The notes: generated from the letters alone by a model not told the origin. A stretch of 64,000 nt of DNA from Flavobacteriales bacterium (GCA_023251095.1 JAHEZL010000008.1:1-64000); one strand, 5' to 3'; counted from the first letter of the stretch, positions 38,033 to 64,000 are shown. Numbers and translations: made by a program.

Positions 38033-39567
38033 AAGAGTTGTTTTTGATATTCGGCGATGGTTTGACTGTGGATTTTTCCTTCCAGCCAGGCAAACACATC
38101 AAAGTATTTATATAGTTTTAAATGTTCCAGTTCAAATTGCCGACTCATCAGGTAATCCCTAAAATCATAGTATTGTCGGCGTACTCTTGCCTTTTCCACT
38201 CCAATTAATTTTATCACCAGATAAATTATTTCGGCATCAATTTCATGATAAACATTTTCTTTATTCAATGATTTTAACCATGATTTCGCTACCGATTTTA
38301 CCAACGAATGTTCTTCAGTTTCATAAAGGCAGAGCAAATATAATATATTGGAGAGATTAAAAATATCGGATTTGACTCCGGTTGATTTATTTTCAATAAT
38401 TTGTTTTAAAATCAGTTTCGATTGAGCGAATTCTCCTAAAGCGAAATAAGAGTAGCCGATGTAATACATCAGCTCCTGTTGCAGTCCGGGGTTGATTTGC
38501 TCGTGATATTCTTCAATGCCTTCCTTGATTTCTTTTTCGTGTTTCAGTATTTCTTTATAGTTGCCTTTGCTTTTGTAATACTCGGCGGTAGCAAGGAAAT
38601 GATAAATGAACAGACTGGTTTGCTGTTCGGGAGAAAGAGCATCTTTTAAGGAATACAAATGCTTTAATTTCAGCAACCACTCCTCCGCTTGCAAGGGTTG
38701 ATTGGTTTCGCCTGCCAGTTCCGTTGCCAGTTGTAGTGTAGATAAATAATCCGAAAAAAGCTCTTCTTTAAAAACCGATATTTCTTCAAATAAATGCAAG
38801 CGTTTTTGAAAATAGGGGAGTGCTTTTTCTTTTTGATGAATCAGTTTGTAATACAAGCCCCAGATGTAATGAAAATTTAGTCGGGCCCTTTGCGACAGGG
38901 CTTTTTCTTCACTTTGCATCAACTCATTTTTCATTAACTCCTCCAGATAGTACAAATCTTTTTTCTGCTGAAACTGCGCGCCTTCAAAATGCAAGCGGGT
39001 AATGGGTAGCAACAGCGAATCGTATTCTTTTATGTTTTCAATGATGATGAGCACTTTTTTTGTTTCGTCCATCAAAGCACGAATACGCTCCTTATAAGAT
39101 TTCAAACTTTTGAACGACATTGCAGAAACCAGTAATTTCTGTTCCATGTTGATGAGCTGCAACAGCGTTTCAAACTGTTCATTCTGCTCGGCTTTTTTCT
39201 TGGTTTGTTCAATTTGTTTGTGTCCTTGTTTGTATAAACCCTTGCGGAATAAAACTTCAATTTCGTTGAGTTTGCTTCGCGTGAACATTCTCGGACTCTT
39301 CTCGGAATACAAAGCCGACAAGCTTTTCAGGATGTTGTTGTACAGCACATTTTTAATCACAAAAAATTCTTTCACATCGGGCAGCTGCGCAATCACTTTT
39401 TCTTCATCGTAGTTTTTGGACTTTTCCAAAATATCAAAGAGTCGGAAAAACTGTTTGTCCTCCGAATTTTTCATGGCGAAAGAGGAATGAAGCTTAAAAT
39501 GCCGTTTCTCCGCTTTGGTAAGCGAATGAATGAGTTCATGTAATTTTGAGGATGACTTACGCGGCAT
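38029..39567 (-). CDS. Helical-repeat protein, paralogue of the gene at 58771
   Basis: 512 residues, all-helical, with no signal peptide. The N-terminal signature SLTKAEKRHFKLHSS matches SLSKSEKRYFKLFSS in the protein at 58771. Both share EVLFRKGLYKQ / RFLYKKGIYAE and a final FAWLEGKI / FESWLEAKI. TPR-like helices fill the middle. I know such proteins as unnamed, Bacteroidota-restricted families; the function is unknown. ATG 39567 is preferred to a TTG at 39615, because a perfect -7 box lies between them. Confidence 0.8.
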   Translation of the reverse strand: MPRKSSSKLHELIHSLTKAEKRHFKLHSSFAMKNSEDKQFFRLFDILEKSKNYDEEKVIAQLPDVKEFFVIKNVLYNNILKSLSALYSEKSPRMFTRSKLNEIEVLFRKGLYKQGHKQIEQTKKKAEQNEQFETLLQLINMEQKLLVSAMSFKSLKSYKERIRALMDETKKVLIIIENIKEYDSLLLPITRLHFEGAQFQQKKDLYYLEELMKNELMQSEEKALSQRARLNFHYIWGLYYKLIHQKEKALPYFQKRLHLFEEISVFKEELFSDYLSTLQLATELAGETNQPLQAEEWLLKLKHLYSLKDALSPEQQTSLFIYHFLATAEYYKSKGNYKEILKHEKEIKEGIEEYHEQINPGLQQELMYYIGYSYFALGEFAQSKLILKQIIENKSTGVKSDIFNLSNILYLLCLYETEEHSLVKSVAKSWLKSLNKENVYHEIDAEIIYLVIKLIGVEKARVRRQYYDFRDYLMSRQFELEHLKLYKYFDVFAWLEGKIHSQTIAEYQKQLL

Positions 39568-54680: not shown

Positions 54681-55817
54681 TTAATTAAAAAATTCTTTAA
54701 TGGTGGTGCAAATATAATTCAATTGATTTTCGCTCAATTCGGTGTGCATTGGCAATGACAATACAGTTTCTGCTAGTTTTTCGGTGACAGGTAAACTTAA
54801 ATCTTTCATTGCTTTAAAAACTTCTTGTTTGTGTAAAGGCAAAGGATAATAAACCATTGCAGGAATTCCTTTTTTATCCAGAAAGTTTTTCAATTCATCT
54901 CTTTTGCCATTGGTAATTTGCATGGTGTATTGATGAAATACGTGAGTTGAATTTTTACTTCTGAAAGGAGTTTGTAAACCTGCTATGCCTTTAAGATTTT
55001 CATCGTAAAATTTTGCAGCTTTATTTCTTCGGGCGCTGAAGTCGCTGAGGTGTTTCAGTTTTTCATTCAATACCGCCGCTTGCAAAGAATCCAAGCGGGA
55101 GTTGATGCCTATCACATCATGGTAATAACGAACCTTGGATCCGTGATTGGCAATCTGCATGGCTTTTTTTCCAAGTGTTTCATCGTTGGTCATCAGCGCA
55201 CCGCCGTCACCAAAACAACCTAAGTTTTTAGAGGGGAAAAAGCTGGTAGTACCAATATTTCCCATTGTTCCGGCCGATTTTTTATCGCCGTTGCTAAAAG
55301 TATATTCAGCGCCGATGGCTTGGGCAGTGTCTTCCACCACGTATAAATTGTGTTTTTTGGCCAAGGCTAAAATGGCTTCCATGTCGGAACATTGTCCGAA
55401 CAAATGCACCGGTAAAAGCACCTTGGTTTTTGGAGTGATGGCTTTTTCAATGGCTGCCAGATTGATATTGAAATCATCGGCATTCACATCAACAAATATA
55501 GGTTTCAAGCCCAAAAGAACAATAACTTCTGCTGTGGCAATAAAGGTGAACGCGGAAGTGATTACTTCATCGCCCGCTTTTAAATCCAGAGCCATCAATG
55601 CTATTTGCAAAGCATCGGTTCCGTTTGCGCATGGAATCACCTGTTTGGCGTTTATGTGGGTGGCCAGATTGGCCGAAAATTCTTTTACAATGGGCCCGCT
55701 GATGAACGACGTTTCATCCAACACCTTTTGCATGGCTTTATCGATAGAGGGTTGCAACCTTTTATACTGAGTTGCCAGATCTACCATTCTTATAGTTTCT
55801 GCAGCAATTTCCGACAT
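54681..55817 (-). CDS. wbpE: PLP-dependent sugar aminotransferase (DegT/DnrJ family, WbpE-like)
   Basis: 378 residues. It probably transfers an amino group from glutamate to C3 of a 3-keto UDP-sugar made by the WbpB-like enzyme. The N-terminus MVDLATQYKRLQPSIDKAMQ, the central VEDTAQAIGA and FFPSKNLGCFGDGGALMTND (PLP lysine in PSKN) define the family. ATG 55817 is preferred to a GTG at 55850; an ATG ten codons further on is also possible. It is the first gene of the ten-gene operon, divergent from 55877. Confidence 0.9.
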   Translation of the reverse strand: MSEIAAETIRMVDLATQYKRLQPSIDKAMQKVLDETSFISGPIVKEFSANLATHINAKQVIPCANGTDALQIALMALDLKAGDEVITSAFTFIATAEVIVLLGLKPIFVDVNADDFNINLAAIEKAITPKTKVLLPVHLFGQCSDMEAILALAKKHNLYVVEDTAQAIGAEYTFSNGDKKSAGTMGNIGTTSFFPSKNLGCFGDGGALMTNDETLGKKAMQIANHGSKVRYYHDVIGINSRLDSLQAAVLNEKLKHLSDFSARRNKAAKFYDENLKGIAGLQTPFRSKNSTHVFHQYTMQITNGKRDELKNFLDKKGIPAMVYYPLPLHKQEVFKAMKDLSLPVTEKLAETVLSLPMHTELSENQLNYICTTIKEFFN

Positions 55818-55876
55818 ATTAAATATTTCAGGCGAAGATAATAATTTCACCCTAACTTTACCTAGTTTTTTAAGCT

Positions 55877-56602
55877 ATGCGAATATCTCTTGTTTTCCTT
55901 CTTTTTTTCATTGGCTCGTTTTCCCTTGTTAGGTCGCAAACAAAGGGGGATATGCACTTATTTGATGTGTCGTACAGCGGCTCGGGAGGCAACGCCGAAG
56001 TTGGTCAAAAAACCAACTATATCAATAGGATAGGAGTGGGCTATTCTTACCAAAGGAATAAAATGAGCTTCGGACTCCAGTATCATTTTATGTTTGGTGA
56101 TTATTCGGGGAAGGATATATTCGCGGCCATGCGGACTTCAGAGGGTTTGTTCATTGCCTCCGACGGGAGCCTTACCGATATTTCGGTGTTGTTCAGAGGA
56201 AATGGCTTGTATGCCACTGTTGGCAGGGTTTTTCCGCTTACGGCTACTAATAACATTAATTTGAATTTTTGTGCCGGAGCCTTGCAAAACAATCTAGCTA
56301 TTAGGTCTTTAGGCAGTTCTTTGCCTTTTTTATTCCCCGACAATATAAAAGGTTATGATCAGTTTTCTATGGGGCCGTCGGTGAAACAGGAAGTTAGATG
56401 GACGCATTTAGGCGCCGATAAAAGAATAAATTTTTATGTAGGCTTATTTGCCGAAGAAGCCTTTTTAAAAAATTTGAGAAAGTATAATTACTTTAACAAC
56501 GCGGCCGATGAAGCCTGGCATTTTAATTTTATGTTTGGCGTTCAGGCCGGATGGATCATTCCGGTGTATATCGGTGAAAAAGAAGAAGAATATATAGATT
56601 GA
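55877..56602 (+). CDS. Putative outer-membrane beta-barrel protein
   Basis: 241 residues with a signal peptide (RISLVFLLFFIGSFSLVRSQ). The mature part has alternating amphipathic strands ending in aromatic residues (INRIGVGYSYQ, MSFGLQYHFMFGDY, WHFNFMFGVQAGWIIPVY), as in outer-membrane proteins. I do not recognise the family. The stop overlaps the start of the Kdo transferase gene by one base (TGATG), so the two are translationally coupled. Confidence 0.75.
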   Translation: MRISLVFLLFFIGSFSLVRSQTKGDMHLFDVSYSGSGGNAEVGQKTNYINRIGVGYSYQRNKMSFGLQYHFMFGDYSGKDIFAAMRTSEGLFIASDGSLTDISVLFRGNGLYATVGRVFPLTATNNINLNFCAGALQNNLAIRSLGSSLPFLFPDNIKGYDQFSMGPSVKQEVRWTHLGADKRINFYVGLFAEEAFLKNLRKYNYFNNAADEAWHFNFMFGVQAGWIIPVYIGEKEEEYID

Positions 56603-57816
56603 TGAACTTCATTTATACCATAGGGATTTTATTGTACGGATTCAGCATCCGCGTGACTTCCCTGTTCAATTACAAAGCGAAATTATGGGTGCGCGGACGA
56701 AGAAAACTCATTGAAAATTTACCCGATAACAGTAAAAAACAACAAAAGACAAACTGGTTCCATTGTGCGTCATTAGGCGAGTTTGAGCAGGGACGACCGC
56801 TCATTGAAAAAATAAAACAGCTGCATCCCGACGAAAAAATCCTGATCACTTTTTATTCGCCGTCGGGCTATGAAATCCGCAAAAATTATGAATTGGCGGA
56901 TTGGGTCACTTATTTGCCTCTCGATTTAAAAAGTAACATGACTGCTTTTGTTGAAAAGGTGAATCCTCACAAGGTGTTTATCATTAAATATGAATTCTGG
57001 TTCAATTTGTTGGGTGTGTTGCACGAACATAAAATCCAAACTTATCTGATTTCCGGAAAATTCAGAAAAGAACAAATATTTTTCCAGTCGAAGGGCACCT
57101 GGTTTCTCACCAAATTGAAAGAAGGCTTTACCCATTTTTTTGTGCAGGATGAAGCGTCATTAAATACTTTACATGAACATGGAATTCATAATGCAACGAT
57201 TGCCGGAGATACCCGAATCGATAGGGTGATTACCCTTTCGCAGCAGCCTTTGAAATTTCCGAATCTGGAGCTTTTATTACAAAATAAAAAGGTAGTTATT
57301 GCGGGTAGTACCTGGGAAGATGAAAATGCTTTTTTAGCACAAACTTCTTTGGACAAAGAGGTAGTGTTGATTATCGCTCCTCATGAAATTTCGGAAAATG
57401 CTGTTTCTTCCTTGGCCGGGAAATTTAACGATGTTGTTTTGTGGAGTAATATTGAAGAAGTTAAAGAGTGTCCGAAAGTGATCATTATCAACTGCATTGG
57501 TATTTTGTCGTCTTTGTATCAATACGGCCACGTTGCCATTATTGGCGGGGGCTTTGGCTCGGGTATTCATAATATATTAGAGCCGGCTTGTTTTGGTTTG
57601 CCGGTAATTTTCGGACCGAAGTACCACAAGTTTGATGAGGCCGCTGAAATGATCAATATGCAAAGCGGATTTTGTGTGAGCAATTCAGCGGAGTTTCAAA
57701 AGATTTTGAGTGATCTTTTGCTTTCTCCCAATGCTTTGCAAGAGATTAAACGAAATCAATTGAACTGGCTGCAAACACAGGCTGGAGCTACGGATAAGAT
57801 TTTGAGTGGAATTTAA
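56602..57816 (+). CDS. waaA: 3-deoxy-D-manno-octulosonic acid (Kdo) transferase
   Basis: 404 residues. It adds Kdo to lipid A on the inner membrane. One N-terminal hydrophobic segment (about 1-20) anchors it. HCASLGEFEQGRPLIEKI contains the catalytic glutamate. TFYSPSGYEIRKNY, GDTRIDRV, AGSTWEDEN and GGGFGSGIHNILEPACFGLPVIFGPKYHKFDEA are typical GT30 features. ATG 56602 is preferred to TTG 56599. It is divergent from the nucleotide-sugar operon. Confidence 0.95.
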   Translation: MNFIYTIGILLYGFSIRVTSLFNYKAKLWVRGRRKLIENLPDNSKKQQKTNWFHCASLGEFEQGRPLIEKIKQLHPDEKILITFYSPSGYEIRKNYELADWVTYLPLDLKSNMTAFVEKVNPHKVFIIKYEFWFNLLGVLHEHKIQTYLISGKFRKEQIFFQSKGTWFLTKLKEGFTHFFVQDEASLNTLHEHGIHNATIAGDTRIDRVITLSQQPLKFPNLELLLQNKKVVIAGSTWEDENAFLAQTSLDKEVVLIIAPHEISENAVSSLAGKFNDVVLWSNIEEVKECPKVIIINCIGILSSLYQYGHVAIIGGGFGSGIHNILEPACFGLPVIFGPKYHKFDEAAEMINMQSGFCVSNSAEFQKILSDLLLSPNALQEIKRNQLNWLQTQAGATDKILSGI

Positions 57817-57905
57817 TTGATTCCTTTTTCACTGATTTATAAACATGATCATTAAGAATTAAGAATGATTGTGTGAGTATGGATAAGTGTGGTTGTCCTC
57901 CTGAC

Positions 57906-57922
57906 GAAGGAAGGACCTATCG
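57906..57922. repeat. Dispersed 17-bp repeat, copy 2
   Basis: Identical to 469-485. It lies 20 bases downstream of the stop of the minus-strand pirin gene, in the gap between that gene and waaA. Confidence 0.55.
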
Positions 57923-57941
57923 TCATTATCAAAGAAAGGAA

Positions 57942-58658
57942 TTAAACCGCCATCGGTACTTCCATCAACAAAAATTCAGCGTCGCTTTCCGCTTTTATGG
58001 AGATTTTATCAATCTCCCAGATGCCAATAGCATCACGGGATTTCAGCGTTTGATCGGCAATGCTGATTTCTCCGCTCAGAACAAAAAGATAAATACCATT
58101 GTTTTCGGCTTTCAAGGAATACTCTGTATTTACTCCTTTATCAGATTTAGAGAGGTAAAACCATGCGTTTTGATGAATCCAAACACCTGCATCATCGGGG
58201 TTTGGCGACAGTATTTGTTGCAGTTGATTGTGCCGGTCGGCAGGATTGAGCGTAATTTGCTGATAACGCGGTGTTACATTTTGTTTGTTGGGAATCAGCC
58301 ATATTTGCAGCAGTTTCACCGCTTTTTCAGCAGAGGCGTTGAATTCACTGTGCTGAATCCCTGTGCCGGCGCTCATTACCTGTACATCACCATTTTTAAT
58401 GATGGTGCCGTTGCCCATACTGTCTTTGTGTTGCAAATCGCCTTCCAGCGGAATGGTGATGATTTCCATGTTAGCGTGCGGATGTGTGCCGAAGCCTCCT
58501 CCGCCTGCAATATCGTCGTCGTTGAGTACGCGCAATACGCCAAAGTGCATGCGCTGCGGATCATAATAATTAGCAAAACTAAATGAGTGGTGACTCTTCA
58601 GCCAGCCGTGATCAGCGTATCCGCGAGAATCGGCTCTGTGTAAAATTCCTTTGGCCAT
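57942..58658 (-). CDS. Pirin family protein
   Basis: 238 residues, a bicupin. The metal ligands are H59 and H61 in GTHPHANMEI, and H103 and E105 in GIQHSEFN. The start (GILHRADSRGYADHGWLKSHHSFSFANYY) is typical of YhhW-like pirins. Members can act as quercetin 2,3-dioxygenases or as redox-sensing regulators; the role here is unknown. It is transcribed alone and convergent with waaA. Confidence 0.92.
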   Translation of the reverse strand: MAKGILHRADSRGYADHGWLKSHHSFSFANYYDPQRMHFGVLRVLNDDDIAGGGGFGTHPHANMEIITIPLEGDLQHKDSMGNGTIIKNGDVQVMSAGTGIQHSEFNASAEKAVKLLQIWLIPNKQNVTPRYQQITLNPADRHNQLQQILSPNPDDAGVWIHQNAWFYLSKSDKGVNTEYSLKAENNGIYLFVLSGEISIADQTLKSRDAIGIWEIDKISIKAESDAEFLLMEVPMAV

Positions 58659-58710
58659 GGTGTTTCCTTTTTAGGCTGATGAAAATAAGTATTTTTAATT
58701 GCTTCTCTTC

Positions 58711-58744
58711 TTGTTCCTTTTACAATTTATATTTATTAACTTTT
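58711..58744 (+). promoter_or_regulatory. Putative promoter of the helical-repeat gene at 58771
   Basis: TTG at 58711-58713, 23 bases, then TAACTTTT at 58737-58744 (one mismatch to TAnnTTTG). The ATG follows 26 bases later. Confidence 0.4.
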
Positions 58745-58770
58745 AAGCAGGAAATACTTTACGGGGATTT

Positions 58771-60246
58771 ATGGCGAAAATAAGTGATGTTGTTTTATTG
58801 ATTTGTTCCTTATCCAAATCAGAGAAGCGTTATTTTAAATTGTTTTCTTCCATTCAGGAAGGAGATAAATTTTATTTAGTGCTTTTTGATTTAATAGATA
58901 AAGGCAGCGCCGACCGGTCGGAACTCAAAAAAAAATTTGAAGCGCAAGCAAAAAAAGCATCTTTTGATGTTACGCTCAAATATTTGTTTAAGGTGTTGAT
59001 GAAAAGCATGAGGGCTTATGATGCCGAGCAAAATATTGATGCCGTTTTGTTGCGCTTGTTGCAGGAAGCACGCTTCTTATATAAAAAAGGAATTTATGCC
59101 GAATGTTTGTCGCAATTGGAAAAGGTGAAAGTGCTCGCGAAAAAACATGAGAAGAATTATTACTTCCTCGAAGCTGCCAATCTGGAACTGGAATATTACA
59201 CCAGAACCGATTTTTTGAATTTGAGTGAACAGGATCTGATTGAAAAACAAGGCGCCATCAGCACCATCATTGATCATGAAAAACAAATCAGTGCGCACGC
59301 CGATTTGTATCAGCTGCTTCTGCATCGCTTTGTCCAAAAGGGCGTGGTGCGCAGTGAAGAAGAAAAACAAAAGTTTGATGATCTGGTTTTATCCGAAGCC
59401 GGTTTAATTTCCAATCCGCATTACCATTCTTTTCATTCGCAGCAATTGCATCTGTTGTTTCAATCGGTGTATTTCCGTTTGATCGGAACACCTGAACTGA
59501 GTCTGGATATTTATCATGAGCTGGATGCCTTGTTTCAGAAATATTCCTTTCTGTGGGAAGAAAACGCACTCTATTATATATATGTGATGGAAGGGATTTT
59601 AAATAACCTTCAAGCTGTTGGACAATATGAAGGGATTCCGTTTTTTATTGAGAAGCTGAAAAAATTAAATCAGAAAGACAGGGAAGAAGAACAGTTGTGG
59701 GCTTTAATTTATCAGTTTGAAATTATTTTTCACATCGGACAAAAGAATTTCCCTGAAGCAAAAAAAGTGCTTCTTTATCACAAAGAAACTTTGGCAAAAT
59801 GTGCTAAATCCCTATTGTCGGCAGCCAACGCAAAAGTATTTTATTACAATGCCTTGGTTTATTTCGGATTGAAAGAATGGAAAAATTGCTTGCAATCTTT
59901 AAATCTGATTTTGAATAACGATTCTTCTTTGGTGCCCGATGAATATGTGACGATGAGCAGAATGGTGGCACTCATCGTTCATTACGAAATGAAAAACCAC
60001 GAATACATTTCTTATGAAATCAGAGGCTTTGAGCGCAAATTAAAAAAGAAAGGAACTTTGTATCGCCTGGAAAAATTGTTGTTTAAGTTTTTTCGATCGG
60101 CCATAAAATCCAATGATGTCAGGTCGGAGAAGAAATGTCTGGTGGCTTGTCGCAATGATTTTAAATCGCTCACAGATCAGCATTACGAAGAACAATTTTT
60201 AAAATTATTCGATTTTGAATCCTGGCTCGAAGCAAAAATAAAATAG
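58771..60246 (+). CDS. Helical-repeat protein, paralogue of the gene at 38029
   Basis: 491 residues, all-helical, without a signal peptide. It shares the opening SLSKSEKRYFKLFSS, the middle RFLYKKGIYAECLSQLEKVK and the end FESWLEAKIK with the protein at 38029. TPR-like helical pairs occupy most of the chain. It stands alone, unlike its paralogue, which is coupled to an exported TPR protein. The function is unknown; it might be a cytoplasmic scaffold. Confidence 0.8.
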   Translation: MAKISDVVLLICSLSKSEKRYFKLFSSIQEGDKFYLVLFDLIDKGSADRSELKKKFEAQAKKASFDVTLKYLFKVLMKSMRAYDAEQNIDAVLLRLLQEARFLYKKGIYAECLSQLEKVKVLAKKHEKNYYFLEAANLELEYYTRTDFLNLSEQDLIEKQGAISTIIDHEKQISAHADLYQLLLHRFVQKGVVRSEEEKQKFDDLVLSEAGLISNPHYHSFHSQQLHLLFQSVYFRLIGTPELSLDIYHELDALFQKYSFLWEENALYYIYVMEGILNNLQAVGQYEGIPFFIEKLKKLNQKDREEEQLWALIYQFEIIFHIGQKNFPEAKKVLLYHKETLAKCAKSLLSAANAKVFYYNALVYFGLKEWKNCLQSLNLILNNDSSLVPDEYVTMSRMVALIVHYEMKNHEYISYEIRGFERKLKKKGTLYRLEKLLFKFFRSAIKSNDVRSEKKCLVACRNDFKSLTDQHYEEQFLKLFDFESWLEAKIK

Positions 60247-60311
60247 CAATCAGGAGTTTAAGATTGTCTGTTCAGTGTAAAAAATGGTAGGAATTTTTTT
60301 ATTGCTGAAAT

Positions 60312-60319
60312 TATCTTTG
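60312..60319 (+). promoter_or_regulatory. -7 box of the ribokinase operon
   Basis: TATCTTTG, a perfect match to TAnnTTTG, 16 bases before the ATG at 60336. No TTG was found at the usual -33 distance. Confidence 0.5.
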
Positions 60320-60335
60320 AGTAAAGACAAAAATT

Positions 60336-61253
60336 ATGAGCGCAGCAAAAATACTTGTGATAGGCAGCAGCAATTCCGATATGGTGATCCAATCGGAAAA
60401 ACTCCCGAAACCGGGTGAAACCGTGATGGGGAAAAAGTTTTTTATGAATCCGGGAGGCAAAGGCGCCAACCAGGCTGTGGCTGCATCGCGACTCGGCGGA
60501 GCGGTTGTTTTTATTGCCCGGGTGGGAAATGATTTGTTTGGTAAACAAGCGATATTCACCTTTAAAAAAGAAGGAATTGATACTTCTTTTGTGGTGGCCG
60601 ATCCGCAAAATCCATCAGGTGTTGCTTTAATTTCCGTTGACGATAAAGGTGAAAATAGCATTGTGGTTGCGCCGGGCGCCAACAGAGCTTTGAGTGTGGA
60701 GGATATTCAACGTGCGGAAAGTGCTGTTGCCGCTGCTGAAATTGTATTAACGCAATTGGAAATTCCAATGACCACGGTGGAGTTTATTGGGAAAACAGTT
60801 TTTGCTTTGGGCAAAAAATTAATTCTCAATCCGGCGCCTGCAGCAAAATTATCTGATGAATTATTGAAGCATGTTTTCATCATCACTCCCAATGAAACCG
60901 AAGCAGAAATTCTTTCGGGAATTAAGGTGAGTGATGTTGAATCGGCGGAAGTGGCAGCAAAAAAAATTCGTGATCGCGGAGTAAAAAATGTGATCATCAC
61001 TATGGGGGCCAACGGTGCATATATTTTGAGCGCCGATTTTAAAGGAGTAGTTGCTGCACCTCTTGTAAAATCAATTGATACCACAGCGGCAGGCGATGTT
61101 TTTAACGGTGCGTTGGCTGTTGCCTTATCCGAAAAATCAAGCATTAAAGAAGCGGTTGAATTTGCCAATCGCGCAGCAGCTTTATCGGTAACAAAAATGG
61201 GCGCGCAAAGTTCCATTCCTTATAAAAAAGAAATCGGAGAAATAATTCATTAA
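60336..61253 (+). CDS. rbsK: Ribokinase
   Basis: 305 residues, PfkB family. It phosphorylates ribose at C5 with ATP. The first family signature is in MNPGGKGANQAVAASRLGGAVVFIARVG. The second, DTTAAGDVFNGALAVALSE, carries the catalytic aspartate and the anion hole near residue 250. LNPAPAAKL and ITPNETEAEILSG are typical of ribokinase. It is the first gene of a three-gene operon with a sugar transporter (one base gap) and an ADP-ribosylglycohydrolase. Confidence 0.92.
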   Translation: MSAAKILVIGSSNSDMVIQSEKLPKPGETVMGKKFFMNPGGKGANQAVAASRLGGAVVFIARVGNDLFGKQAIFTFKKEGIDTSFVVADPQNPSGVALISVDDKGENSIVVAPGANRALSVEDIQRAESAVAAAEIVLTQLEIPMTTVEFIGKTVFALGKKLILNPAPAAKLSDELLKHVFIITPNETEAEILSGIKVSDVESAEVAAKKIRDRGVKNVIITMGANGAYILSADFKGVVAAPLVKSIDTTAAGDVFNGALAVALSEKSSIKEAVEFANRAAALSVTKMGAQSSIPYKKEIGEIIH

Positions 61254-61254
61254 T

Positions 61255-62247
61255 ATGTTTATAGTAGAAAATTATAGCATTGCTGTTTTGTTTTGTGTGG
61301 TCACCATGCTGTGCTGGGGCTCGTGGGCCAATACGCAAAAACTGGCCGATAAAAACTGGCGCTTCGAATTATTTTACTGGGATTATATTTTAAGCATGTT
61401 TGTTTTTTCTTTGCTATTGGCTTTTACCATGGGTAGCAATGGCGAGCAAGGCAGAAGTTTTATGGAAGATATCCAACAAGCGGATTCTTCTAATTTGATG
61501 TTCGCATTTATCGGTGGCGTAATATTTAATCTCGCCAATATTTTATTGGTGGCTGCTTTAAATTTAGCGGGAATGGCTGTGGCTTTTCCAATAGGAATCG
61601 GCATCGCTTTAATTTTGGGAGTGCTGCTCAATTACATGCTTTCTCCTGTTGGAGATTTCACTTTATTGATCCTTGGAGTAGTATTGGTGATGATTGCGAT
61701 TCTCTTTACTGCAGCAGCTTACAAGAAATCGGGATTGGCAGGAAAAGGTTCGGTTAAAGGTATTGTGGTGGCTATTGTTAGCGGAGTGTTAATGGGCATA
61801 TTTTATCCTTTTGTGGCGAAAGGAATTTCCCCCGATTTTTCTTTTCCCGAAGCAGGAATGTTAACGCCCTACACTGCTTTTGTGGTGATGGTTTTTGGTG
61901 CTTTGATCAGCAATTTTGTATTCAATACCATTTTGATGCAACGTCCTTTTTCCGGATTGCCCGTGACTTACAAAAATTATTTTCAGGGAAGTTTTAAAAG
62001 TCATTTCGCAGGCATCATCGGCGGTATCATCTGGGGCATCGGAACTTCTTTTAACATCATCGCTTCAGGAAAAGCGGGCTTTGCTATCTCTTACGGATTG
62101 GGACAAGGGGCAACTTTGATTGCTGCCATCTGGGGAGTTTTCATCTGGAAAGAATTTAAAAATGCATCGCGCCTTACCAACTTTTTTCTTGCGCTGATGT
62201 TTGTGTTTTATGTGTCGGGATTGCTCGTAATTATTTTATCAAAATAA
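61255..62247 (+). CDS. GRP-type sugar transporter (DMT superfamily)
   Basis: 330 residues with about ten transmembrane helices. LFCVVTMLCWGSWANTQKLA at the N-terminus matches the glucose/ribose porter (GRP) family. It probably imports a sugar by proton symport. It follows ribokinase by one base, so ribose is the likely substrate. NYFQGSFKSHFAGIIGGIIWGIGTSFNIIASGKAGFAISY is the second-repeat signature. Confidence 0.85.
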   Translation: MFIVENYSIAVLFCVVTMLCWGSWANTQKLADKNWRFELFYWDYILSMFVFSLLLAFTMGSNGEQGRSFMEDIQQADSSNLMFAFIGGVIFNLANILLVAALNLAGMAVAFPIGIGIALILGVLLNYMLSPVGDFTLLILGVVLVMIAILFTAAAYKKSGLAGKGSVKGIVVAIVSGVLMGIFYPFVAKGISPDFSFPEAGMLTPYTAFVVMVFGALISNFVFNTILMQRPFSGLPVTYKNYFQGSFKSHFAGIIGGIIWGIGTSFNIIASGKAGFAISYGLGQGATLIAAIWGVFIWKEFKNASRLTNFFLALMFVFYVSGLLVIILSK

Positions 62248-62252
62248 AAGTC

Positions 62253-63602
62253 ATGAGAAAAAATATATTTTTTATTTCTTTCATTTTATTGGTGGCCTGT
62301 TCTTCAGGAGAACATTCAAATTCCTTGGTGAATAAGGATTTTGAATACAAAGAGTATGTTCCTAAATCTACCGACAGAAAAATTTCGCGCTCAAAATATT
62401 TAAATCAATTACAAGGATTTTGGCTCGGGCAATGCATTGCCAACTGGACGGGTTTAGTCACCGAAATGGATAAAATCGGCAACGTTGGAGAAATAAAAAC
62501 CGGAGCTTTTTATACACGCAACGATTGGGGAAAGCCCGATCAGCCAAGTATCTGGGGACAAGGAATACCGAGTGATTTATCGCCCACCATCGATTTTGTT
62601 TTTAAAAATGAAGGAGAGATTTGGGGTGCTGATGACGATACCGATATTGAATATATTTATCAGGAACTTTTGTTTTCAAATAAAACATCTGTGCTGAGTC
62701 CTCAGCAAATAAAGGAGGGTTGGATGAAACACATCAAAGCCGAGGAAGAAAATTATTTGTGGGTTTCCAATCAAAAAGCTTTTGATTTGATGCGTGGCGG
62801 AATGCTTCCTCCCGAAACCGGTGATCCAAAAAATAATCCCGAATTTGAAATGATTGATGCGCAACTGACCACCGAAATTTTTGGTTTGTTTGCTCCTGCT
62901 CGTCCTGATGTTGCATTGAAAATGGCGCATTTGCCTATTCAAACCACAGCACGAAAAAATTCAGAATGGATCTCTGAATTTTATGTGACAATGTATTCTC
63001 TCGCATCTTATGTTGACGAAAAAAAATCAATGAAGGATAAAATTCACTGGATGGCCGATGAAGCACGAAAGCATTTGCCAAACGATTCTTATTCTGCTAA
63101 AATGTTCGATTTTGTGAAAAGTAGATATGCAGCAAACATCCCTTGGGAACAGGCAAGAGATGAAGTATATCAACGCTATCAGGTGGAACAGGCCGATGGT
63201 TATAACATGACTTCACAGAACAAATACGGCAACGGTTGTTTTGCCGCGGGAATTAATTTTGCATCGAGCATTATCAGTCTTTTGTATGGTGAAGGTGATA
63301 TTGTGAATACCATAGAAATCGGAACGCTTGCCGGTTGGGATTCCGATAATCCTACGGCAACATGGGGGGGAATGCTTGGATTTATGCTGGGTAAAGAAGG
63401 TGTGGAAAAAGCTTTCAACAGAAAATTTGCCGATCAGTTTAATATTCACAGGACCAGAATTGGTTTTCCAAATAAGGGCATTGATAATTTTTTAAATATG
63501 GCTACTAGGGGTGTGTTTATTGTGGATAGAGTGGTGCAGGAAGAAATGGGAGGTGGTGTTGATTTGGAAGAGGATGTGTGGTATGTTCCTGAACTGAAAT
63601 AG
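62253..63602 (+). CDS. ADP-ribosylglycohydrolase-family lipoprotein
   Basis: 449 residues with a lipoprotein signal (FFISFILLVACSS, lipid cysteine C16). The glycohydrolase fold is shown by QGFWLGQCIANWTG near the start, WGADDDTDIEYIYQELL (metal-binding aspartates, in place of the usual TDDT motif) and AGWDSDNPTATWGGMLGFMLG near the end. The family cleaves N- or O-glycosidic bonds of ADP-ribose. The lipid anchor places it outside the cytoplasm. It is the third gene of the ribokinase operon, so it may free ribose from ADP-ribose or nucleosides. Confidence 0.85.
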   Translation: MRKNIFFISFILLVACSSGEHSNSLVNKDFEYKEYVPKSTDRKISRSKYLNQLQGFWLGQCIANWTGLVTEMDKIGNVGEIKTGAFYTRNDWGKPDQPSIWGQGIPSDLSPTIDFVFKNEGEIWGADDDTDIEYIYQELLFSNKTSVLSPQQIKEGWMKHIKAEEENYLWVSNQKAFDLMRGGMLPPETGDPKNNPEFEMIDAQLTTEIFGLFAPARPDVALKMAHLPIQTTARKNSEWISEFYVTMYSLASYVDEKKSMKDKIHWMADEARKHLPNDSYSAKMFDFVKSRYAANIPWEQARDEVYQRYQVEQADGYNMTSQNKYGNGCFAAGINFASSIISLLYGEGDIVNTIEIGTLAGWDSDNPTATWGGMLGFMLGKEGVEKAFNRKFADQFNIHRTRIGFPNKGIDNFLNMATRGVFIVDRVVQEEMGGGVDLEEDVWYVPELK

Positions 63603-63620
63603 CAAAGCTGCAAGTTGTAA

Positions 63621-63786
63621 AATCCTCCTTGCCCTCACACAATTCCTTCGCACTCCTCCTTTTTCAAAGGAGGAAGTTAATTAGCTGGCATTTCCTGAAG
63701 TGTATTGTGAAAATGGATGAGTAGCGCACTTCTCCCTTTGTAAAAGGGAGAGAGCGGAGGATTGATGTGTGAGGGCAAGAGGGATT
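63621..63786. mobile_element. MITE-like dispersed repeat, copy 2 (inverted)
   Basis: About 166 bp. Its reverse complement matches copy 1 (45499-45667) over the full length, with best conservation in the centre (TCAGGAAATGCCAGCTA on the copy-1 strand) and in the hairpin TCCTCCTTTGAAAAAGGAGG. Terminal inverted repeats are AATCCTCCTTGCC and GGCAAGAGGGATT. It lies after the stop at 63602 and before the promoter at 63824. Confidence 0.75.
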
Positions 63787-63823
63787 TTTAACTTTGGGAT
63801 TGTCTAAACCCTACCATTTTTGG

Positions 63824-63856
63824 TTGGATTTCTCCCTCCTTACTCCCCTATATTTG
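63824..63856 (+). promoter_or_regulatory. Promoter of the metallophosphoesterase gene
   Basis: TTG at 63824-63826, 22 bases, then TATATTTG at 63849-63856, a perfect -7 box. The ATG is at 63888. The promoter is separate from the ribokinase operon. Confidence 0.55.
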
Positions 63857-63887
63857 AAAGAACACCAAAACATAAACCCATACTGAT

Positions 63888-64000
63888 ATGAAAAAGATAT
63901 TCACCTTTATTTGCTCTTTCTTTTTAGCGATAGCAAATGCTCAGGATTTTACGTTGATGGTTTTGCCCGATACGCAATTTTACATTGTAAGCTGGAGCAC
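63888..64000 (+). CDS. Secreted metallophosphoesterase, 5' part only
   Basis: Only the first 37 codons lie in the window; the gene runs off the right edge. A signal peptide (KKIFTFICSFFLAIANAQ) is followed by DFTLMVLPDTQFYIV. The LPDTQ motif is the first metal-binding segment of calcineurin-like phosphoesterases. The substrate cannot be judged from this fragment. Confidence 0.75.
   Translation, partial: MKKIFTFICSFFLAIANAQDFTLMVLPDTQFYIVSWS

Follow-up and report, generated by a model that had tools for sequence, protein, structure and literature searches.

What does a lipoprotein of a family named after ADP-ribosylation do in an operon with a ribokinase? The question is raised by a 64,000-nucleotide stretch of a Flavobacteriales bacterium (GCA_023251095.1 JAHEZL010000008.1:1-64000; hereafter the window, to which coordinates refer unless another locus is named). 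Here, three open reading frames (ORFs) lie in tandem on the plus strand and encode a ribokinase (60336–61253, 305 amino acids), a transporter of the DMT/GRP type (61255–62247, 330 amino acids) and a lipoprotein with the PF03747 fold (62253–63602, 449 amino acids). A preliminary description of these genes had proposed the salvage of ribose from external ADP-ribose or nucleosides, by cleavage outside the cytoplasm followed by import and phosphorylation.

We consider it probable that the genes form a compact scavenging locus of the rus type, in which extracytoplasmic hydrolysis of a riboside is followed by import and phosphorylation of the ribose. The cluster is most likely a reduced version of the known rus system of Bacteroides thetaiotaomicron that lacks SusC/SusD and a nucleoside hydrolase. 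In the mechanism that we propose, the extracytoplasmic lipoprotein, probably facing the periplasm, would free D-ribose by hydrolysis of a riboside, most likely a nucleoside or a comparable small molecule that carries ribose. The DMT-type transporter would carry the ribose across the inner membrane, the ribokinase would convert it into ribose-5-phosphate for the pentose phosphate pathway, and a TPR-like protein encoded just upstream would be the likely regulator. The order of events first proposed is supported by Bacteroides-like loci, in which a matching transporter and kinase and the regulator-like gene recur together with PF03747 lipoproteins or nucleoside hydrolases, and by reshuffled versions of the triad in several lineages.

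Layout and extent of the locus

The three ORFs are separated by 1 base (kinase and transporter) and 5 bases (transporter and PF03747 gene), which confirms the ORFs and spacing of the operon as it was first described. The triad is kept in two further species of the genus (congeners G003 and G004), and its layout is therefore not a matter of chance. Both congeners have the same gene order and carry a gene of 503–508 amino acids upstream of the ribokinase, at the place where the window has a gene of 491 amino acids (58771–60246, plus strand). The unit reaches further left than first reported and includes this gene.

Because the family of the upstream gene has paralogues, with eight matches in the genome of the window, its specificity was tested with a hidden Markov model (HMM) built solely from the homologues that adjoin ribokinase in four distant ribose loci (L107–L110). 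The model scored 346 bits against 58771–60246, whereas two paralogues from this genome reached 129 and 66 bits. By this sequence measure, the gene is the specific relative of a TPR-like protein whose gene lies upstream of the ribokinase, in divergent orientation, in Bacteroides-like ribose loci. In G107, G294 and G277, three genomes that we call Bacteroides-like from their gene content, the family has one copy each, which adjoins the ribokinase. The AlphaFold model of the window protein is all-helical (predicted local distance difference test score (pLDDT) of 81) and its relative in L108 weakly matches TPR_14/TPR_2; a PDB fold search with the model returned nothing at E ≤ 0.001. By their position, the gene and its homologues beside ribokinase are candidate counterparts of RusR (BT2802), the regulator of the B. 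thetaiotaomicron ribose locus.

The RusR-like family has no clear Pfam model and is expanded in some relatives, with 20 matches in G055 and 14 in G002. One paralogue is found within the window on the minus strand (38041–39546).

Between the RusR-like gene and the ribokinase, the sequence TATCTTTG (60312–60319, plus strand) is invariant in 8 of 8 bases across the three species amid flanks that vary. It matches TAnnTTTG, which we take to be the −7 promoter element of Bacteroidota. Given this conservation within varying surroundings, transcription of the three genes is probably driven by a separate promoter at this site. The motif is neither rarer nor commoner in the window than expected by chance (65 found versus 78 expected), and scans for sigma-70 promoters and terminators gave results at chance level.

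Ribokinase, transporter and related ribose loci

The first gene of the operon scores above two NCBIfam equivalog cut-offs (TIGR02152, 375.6 versus 299.7 bits; PRK11142, 356.6 versus 341 bits) and matches PF00294 (E = 1.7e-72). In agreement with the earlier assignment, the profile matches identify its product as a ribokinase (RusK-like), not a nucleoside kinase.

The second gene had been described as a GRP-type sugar porter. Membership of the DMT/GRP superfamily holds, with Ureide_permease (PF07168, 77.9 bits) as the top Pfam match, followed by Sugar_transport (PF06800, 43.9 bits), but its sugar is not fixed in this way: scores against the RhaT/GlcU and RbsU models are under the cut-off, and the family alone therefore does not name the substrate. 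The transporter is about 54% identical over 327 residues, nearly its full length, to its counterparts in the Bacteroides-like ribose loci L108–L110, and is thus RusT-like. Its closest relatives outside the genus are mostly found in loci with a ribokinase and a PF03747 lipoprotein and/or nucleoside hydrolases. The gene order is ribokinase, PF03747 lipoprotein, nucleoside hydrolase and transporter in L108, and ribokinase, PF03747 protein and transporter in L109 and L106. L110 has ribokinase, nucleoside hydrolase, transporter, SusC, SusD and nucleoside hydrolase, and L107 has ribokinase and transporter with three nucleoside hydrolases. The PF03747 gene of the window stands at the same position as that of the Bacteroides-like ribose loci.

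The gene content of these loci matches the annotation of the B. thetaiotaomicron rus locus, which lists a ribokinase, a TonB receptor (SusC), SusD, a DUF4969 protein, a nucleoside hydrolase and a DMT permease (PMC10434189), and for this reason we read the cluster as rus-type. A later paper, citing Glowacki et al. 2020, gives BT2803-09 as required for ribose use and RusT as the proposed ribose transporter (PMC12596196). The window shares with rus (BT2803–BT2809 with RusR) a ribokinase, a DMT-type transporter, a predicted extracytoplasmic enzyme, a regulator-like gene adjoining the ribokinase and a presumed function in ribose scavenging. It differs in the absence of a nucleoside hydrolase and of a SusC/SusD pair (none among the ORFs at 55000–64000 or in the first 8 kb past the window), in the orientation of the regulator-like gene, which is read in the direction of the operon and not divergently, and in a PF03747 enzyme of another subfamily, with 27–29% identity to those of the Bacteroides-like loci. 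Nor were SusC/SusD genes seen in the stretches fetched for L106, L108 and L109, and they are hence not universal among the related loci. The pathway is already known as rus; particular to the window are the minimal form and the distinct PF03747 subfamily. Rus-type ribose scavenging, known from gut Bacteroides, would thereby also occur in a flavobacterial lineage, reduced there to a minimum of four genes.

The Ureide_permease match and the nucleoside hydrolases in sister loci could also be taken to mean that the solute of the transporter is not ribose but a nucleoside, base or ureide, and that the cluster is a general nucleoside-use locus. We find this very unlikely, given that the kinase is a ribokinase and that ribose is the proposed solute of RusT, which is itself annotated as a DMT permease. 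Moreover, the enzymes in the loci of the transporter relatives start with signal-peptide or lipobox-like sequences, so that the sugar would be freed before import.

In a class-wide survey of 296 genomes, transporter relatives were found in ten, eight of which also carry a PF03747 relative, compared with 6 of the 286 genomes without the transporter (a marginal match in G082 was left out). This association is significant by Fisher's test, uncorrected for kinship (p = 1e-10, or 5e-7 excluding the genus of the window), and the counts span at least five families.

Export, fold and motifs of the PF03747 lipoprotein

The product of the third gene matches PF03747 (84.1 bits) and has a lipobox, LVAC, at residues 13–16 (62289–62300), the cysteine of which (Cys16) is invariant in five relatives; its description as a lipid-anchored protein of the ADP-ribosylglycohydrolase family stands. 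Surface-exposed lipoproteins of Bacteroidota are marked by an acidic cluster after this cysteine. In the window protein it is followed by SSGEH, which has no such acidic surface-export signal, so an anchor that faces the periplasm rather than the surface is the likelier arrangement.

With the AlphaFold model of the protein (pLDDT 87.7), a structure search placed ARH3 and DraG at the top of the PDB matches (6hgz and 2woc; E = 3e-6) and also returned Tri1 (6dre), with a Foldseek probability of 1.00 and, relative to query length, a template modelling (TM) score of about 0.5. This search settled the fold. When the PDB was searched with the single sequence, chance matches alone were obtained (E of about 0.5), and the sole match of a profile search was the C-terminal motif of Tri1 (PDB 6dre, E = 5.5e-4). 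The protein shares the fold and the acidic metal-ligand positions of ARH3, DraG and Tri1, but is a secreted lipoprotein of about 12% identity in which the first threonine of TDDT and the NGaaMR motif are replaced.

Five acidic residues are invariant in an alignment with Escherichia coli YegU and the Bacteroides-like PF03747 proteins. These are Glu71 (62463–62465), which aligns with the metal/catalytic glutamate of the ARH family; Asp128 and Asp129 of the ADDDTD motif (62628–62645), which align with the central pair of TDDT; and the C-terminal metal-ligand pair Asp363-x-Asp365 (63339–63347), which aligns with GDDAD of PDB 6dre. They are presumably the positions that bind the metal pair. The departure of ADDDTD from TDDT had been offered as a sign of a changed substrate. 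The TDDT signature is indeed absent, with aspartate in place of the threonine before Asp-Asp (DDDT), but the catalytic pair is intact and the argument is weak by itself. Better evidence comes from what appears in the alignment as a larger change, the loss of NGaaMR. This motif is present in YegU, MJ1187 and ARH3, and is replaced by D-x-Q in both the window subfamily and the Bacteroides-like PF03747 group (DAQLTTE in the window, 62856–62876), with D202 and Q204, like Asp363 and Asp365, invariant in 52 sequences.

The loss of NGaaMR argues against ADP-ribose as the substrate. Membership of PF03747, the ARH3/DraG fold and the retained metal-ligand residues would be compatible with a lipoprotein that cleaves external ADP-ribose, NAD or ADP-ribosylated material, the ribose moiety of which is then salvaged. 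However, cleavage of the ARH type yields ADP-ribose rather than free ribose, the pyrophosphatase and phosphatase steps that would be needed are absent from the operon, and the neighbouring metallophosphoesterase is not conserved beside it. No locus points to ADP-ribose, and we regard this part of the preliminary description as highly improbable. Our best guess is that the enzyme acts on nucleosides or another riboside. Because no PF01156 nucleoside hydrolase is present in the genome of the window, and a search of the genome for a secreted 5′-nucleotidase (PF02872) found none, the lipoprotein is the only candidate that we found for the release of ribose outside the cytoplasm.

The E. coli operon yegTUV (NC_000913 2178821–2182061) is similar to the triad in that its three genes encode a transporter, a PF03747 protein and a PfkB-family kinase; YegT is a predicted MFS nucleoside:H+ symporter, and the operon has been tied to glycogen accumulation through GgaR (PMC10819704). 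Whereas YegU has no lipobox and retains TDDT and NGAAMR, the window protein has a lipobox and neither motif. The transporters also differ (DMT/GRP in the window, MFS in YegT), and the locus is thus not a yegTUV-like operon. As an independent operon, yegTUV (L128 2822–6062) may parallel the ribose loci in function.

Distribution and neighbourhoods of the enzyme subfamily

The PF03747 subfamily of the window is represented by 270 stretches in GTDB representatives confirmed by tblastn, of which 80 were fetched (62–81% identity). The fetched stretches come from Bacteroidota, KSB1, Fidelibacterota (Marinimicrobia), Ignavibacteriota (Melioribacteraceae) and Gemmatimonadota. Neighbourhoods were counted over 85 loci. 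A ribokinase and the transporter are found beside the enzyme in the genus of the window, in Lutibacter (L029), Marinilabiliaceae (L035), Breznakibacter (L063) and Algoriphagus (L077), and in L064. In Flammeovirga (L087), the enzyme occurs with a ribokinase and a nucleoside hydrolase, and in L032 and L081 a nucleoside hydrolase abuts the enzyme in the absence of ribokinase and transporter. Five of the six nucleoside-hydrolase matches in the 85 loci are in the operon of the enzyme itself, four of them directly abutting it. In all, about eight lineages link the enzyme to a ribokinase, a transporter or a nucleoside hydrolase, and the order of the genes varies among them. On the tree, the ribose-partner label requires 7 changes, at least 4 of which are forced by well-supported branches. 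The reshuffled order and the repeated changes of label therefore indicate functional linkage, not a single inherited arrangement.

Several observations weigh against a ribose-scavenging function. Ribose cannot be read from the transporter family alone, and L105, L111 and L112 carry a relative of the transporter without ribose genes. Four genomes of the class (G006, G007, G097 and G125) have the enzyme but no transporter, which uncouples its activity from this route of uptake. In the Bacteroides-like ribose loci, the PF03747 proteins are not only a different subfamily but a very distant one, on a very long branch. The identification with rus is drawn from loci of the same architecture and from secondary literature, with B. 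thetaiotaomicron compared by description. Furthermore, most loci of the subfamily have no ribokinase and transporter nearby. Co-occurrence of the three genes, which the preliminary description put forward as a check, is thus seen in several lineages but not in most loci of the subfamily.

At least 24 of the 85 loci hold GH3, GH16, GH17, GH5/30, GH31, GH9 or GH2 (glycoside hydrolase) or SusC/D genes, instead of the ribose partners or in addition to them. Together with the scarcity of kinase and transporter genes, these neighbours would fit a broader glycosidase, acting for example on β-glucan-derived or other glycosides, that some lineages recruited alongside a pair of ribose uptake genes and whose product need not be ribose. 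We think that this is unlikely. The enzyme has been reassembled with ribokinase, transporter or nucleoside hydrolase independently and in changed order in the lineages described above; glycan loci of Bacteroidota are mosaics and hence weak evidence for a substrate; and the operon in the window contains no other glycan gene.

Beyond the window, it is conceivable, although we put this forward tentatively, that the GFWLGQCIANWTG subfamily of PF03747 consists of unrecognised secreted, metal-dependent hydrolases of ribosides (or other glycosides). In these proteins, the ADP-ribosylhydrolase fold would have been turned to nutrient acquisition across Bacteroidota, Fidelibacterota, KSB1, Ignavibacteriota and Gemmatimonadota, replacing the nucleoside hydrolase in compact ribose loci. 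The branch is large, uncharacterised and highly conserved. Its secreted proteins carry a name derived from ADP-ribosylation and are probably catabolic, and knowledge of the activity of one of them would correct the annotation in hundreds of genomes.

Other members of the subfamily have different surroundings. In a sister genus, the lipoprotein is encoded alone, away from any ribokinase or transporter (L011 11675–12979 and L012 3238–4521). In Eudoraea (L041, L043, L048 and L028), its gene follows a gene of cluster c7 (ThuA-like by eye), and L041 and L043 also have genes for an MFS-type transporter and a TIM-barrel protein resembling an isomerase, which suggests a different sugar pathway.

Sequence downstream of the operon

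The secreted phosphoesterase that had been described as following the operon is present downstream. The gene starts in the window (63888–64000), extends to contig position 65798 (L003:1–1798) and encodes a calcineurin-like metallophosphoesterase with a C-terminal sorting domain for type IX secretion. Its membership of the unit is ruled out, however: it begins 285 bp on, past a genomic repeat, and of the two congeners G003 has a similar gene after the operon, whereas G004 has none there.

The repeat (63619–63788) is about 170 bp long, has inverted ends (AAAATCCTCCTTGCC...GGCAAGAGGGATTTT) and is present in tens of copies in the genome (76 matches over both strands). It occurs at the same place in the congener G003 and resembles a miniature inverted-repeat transposable element (MITE) or another interspersed palindromic element.

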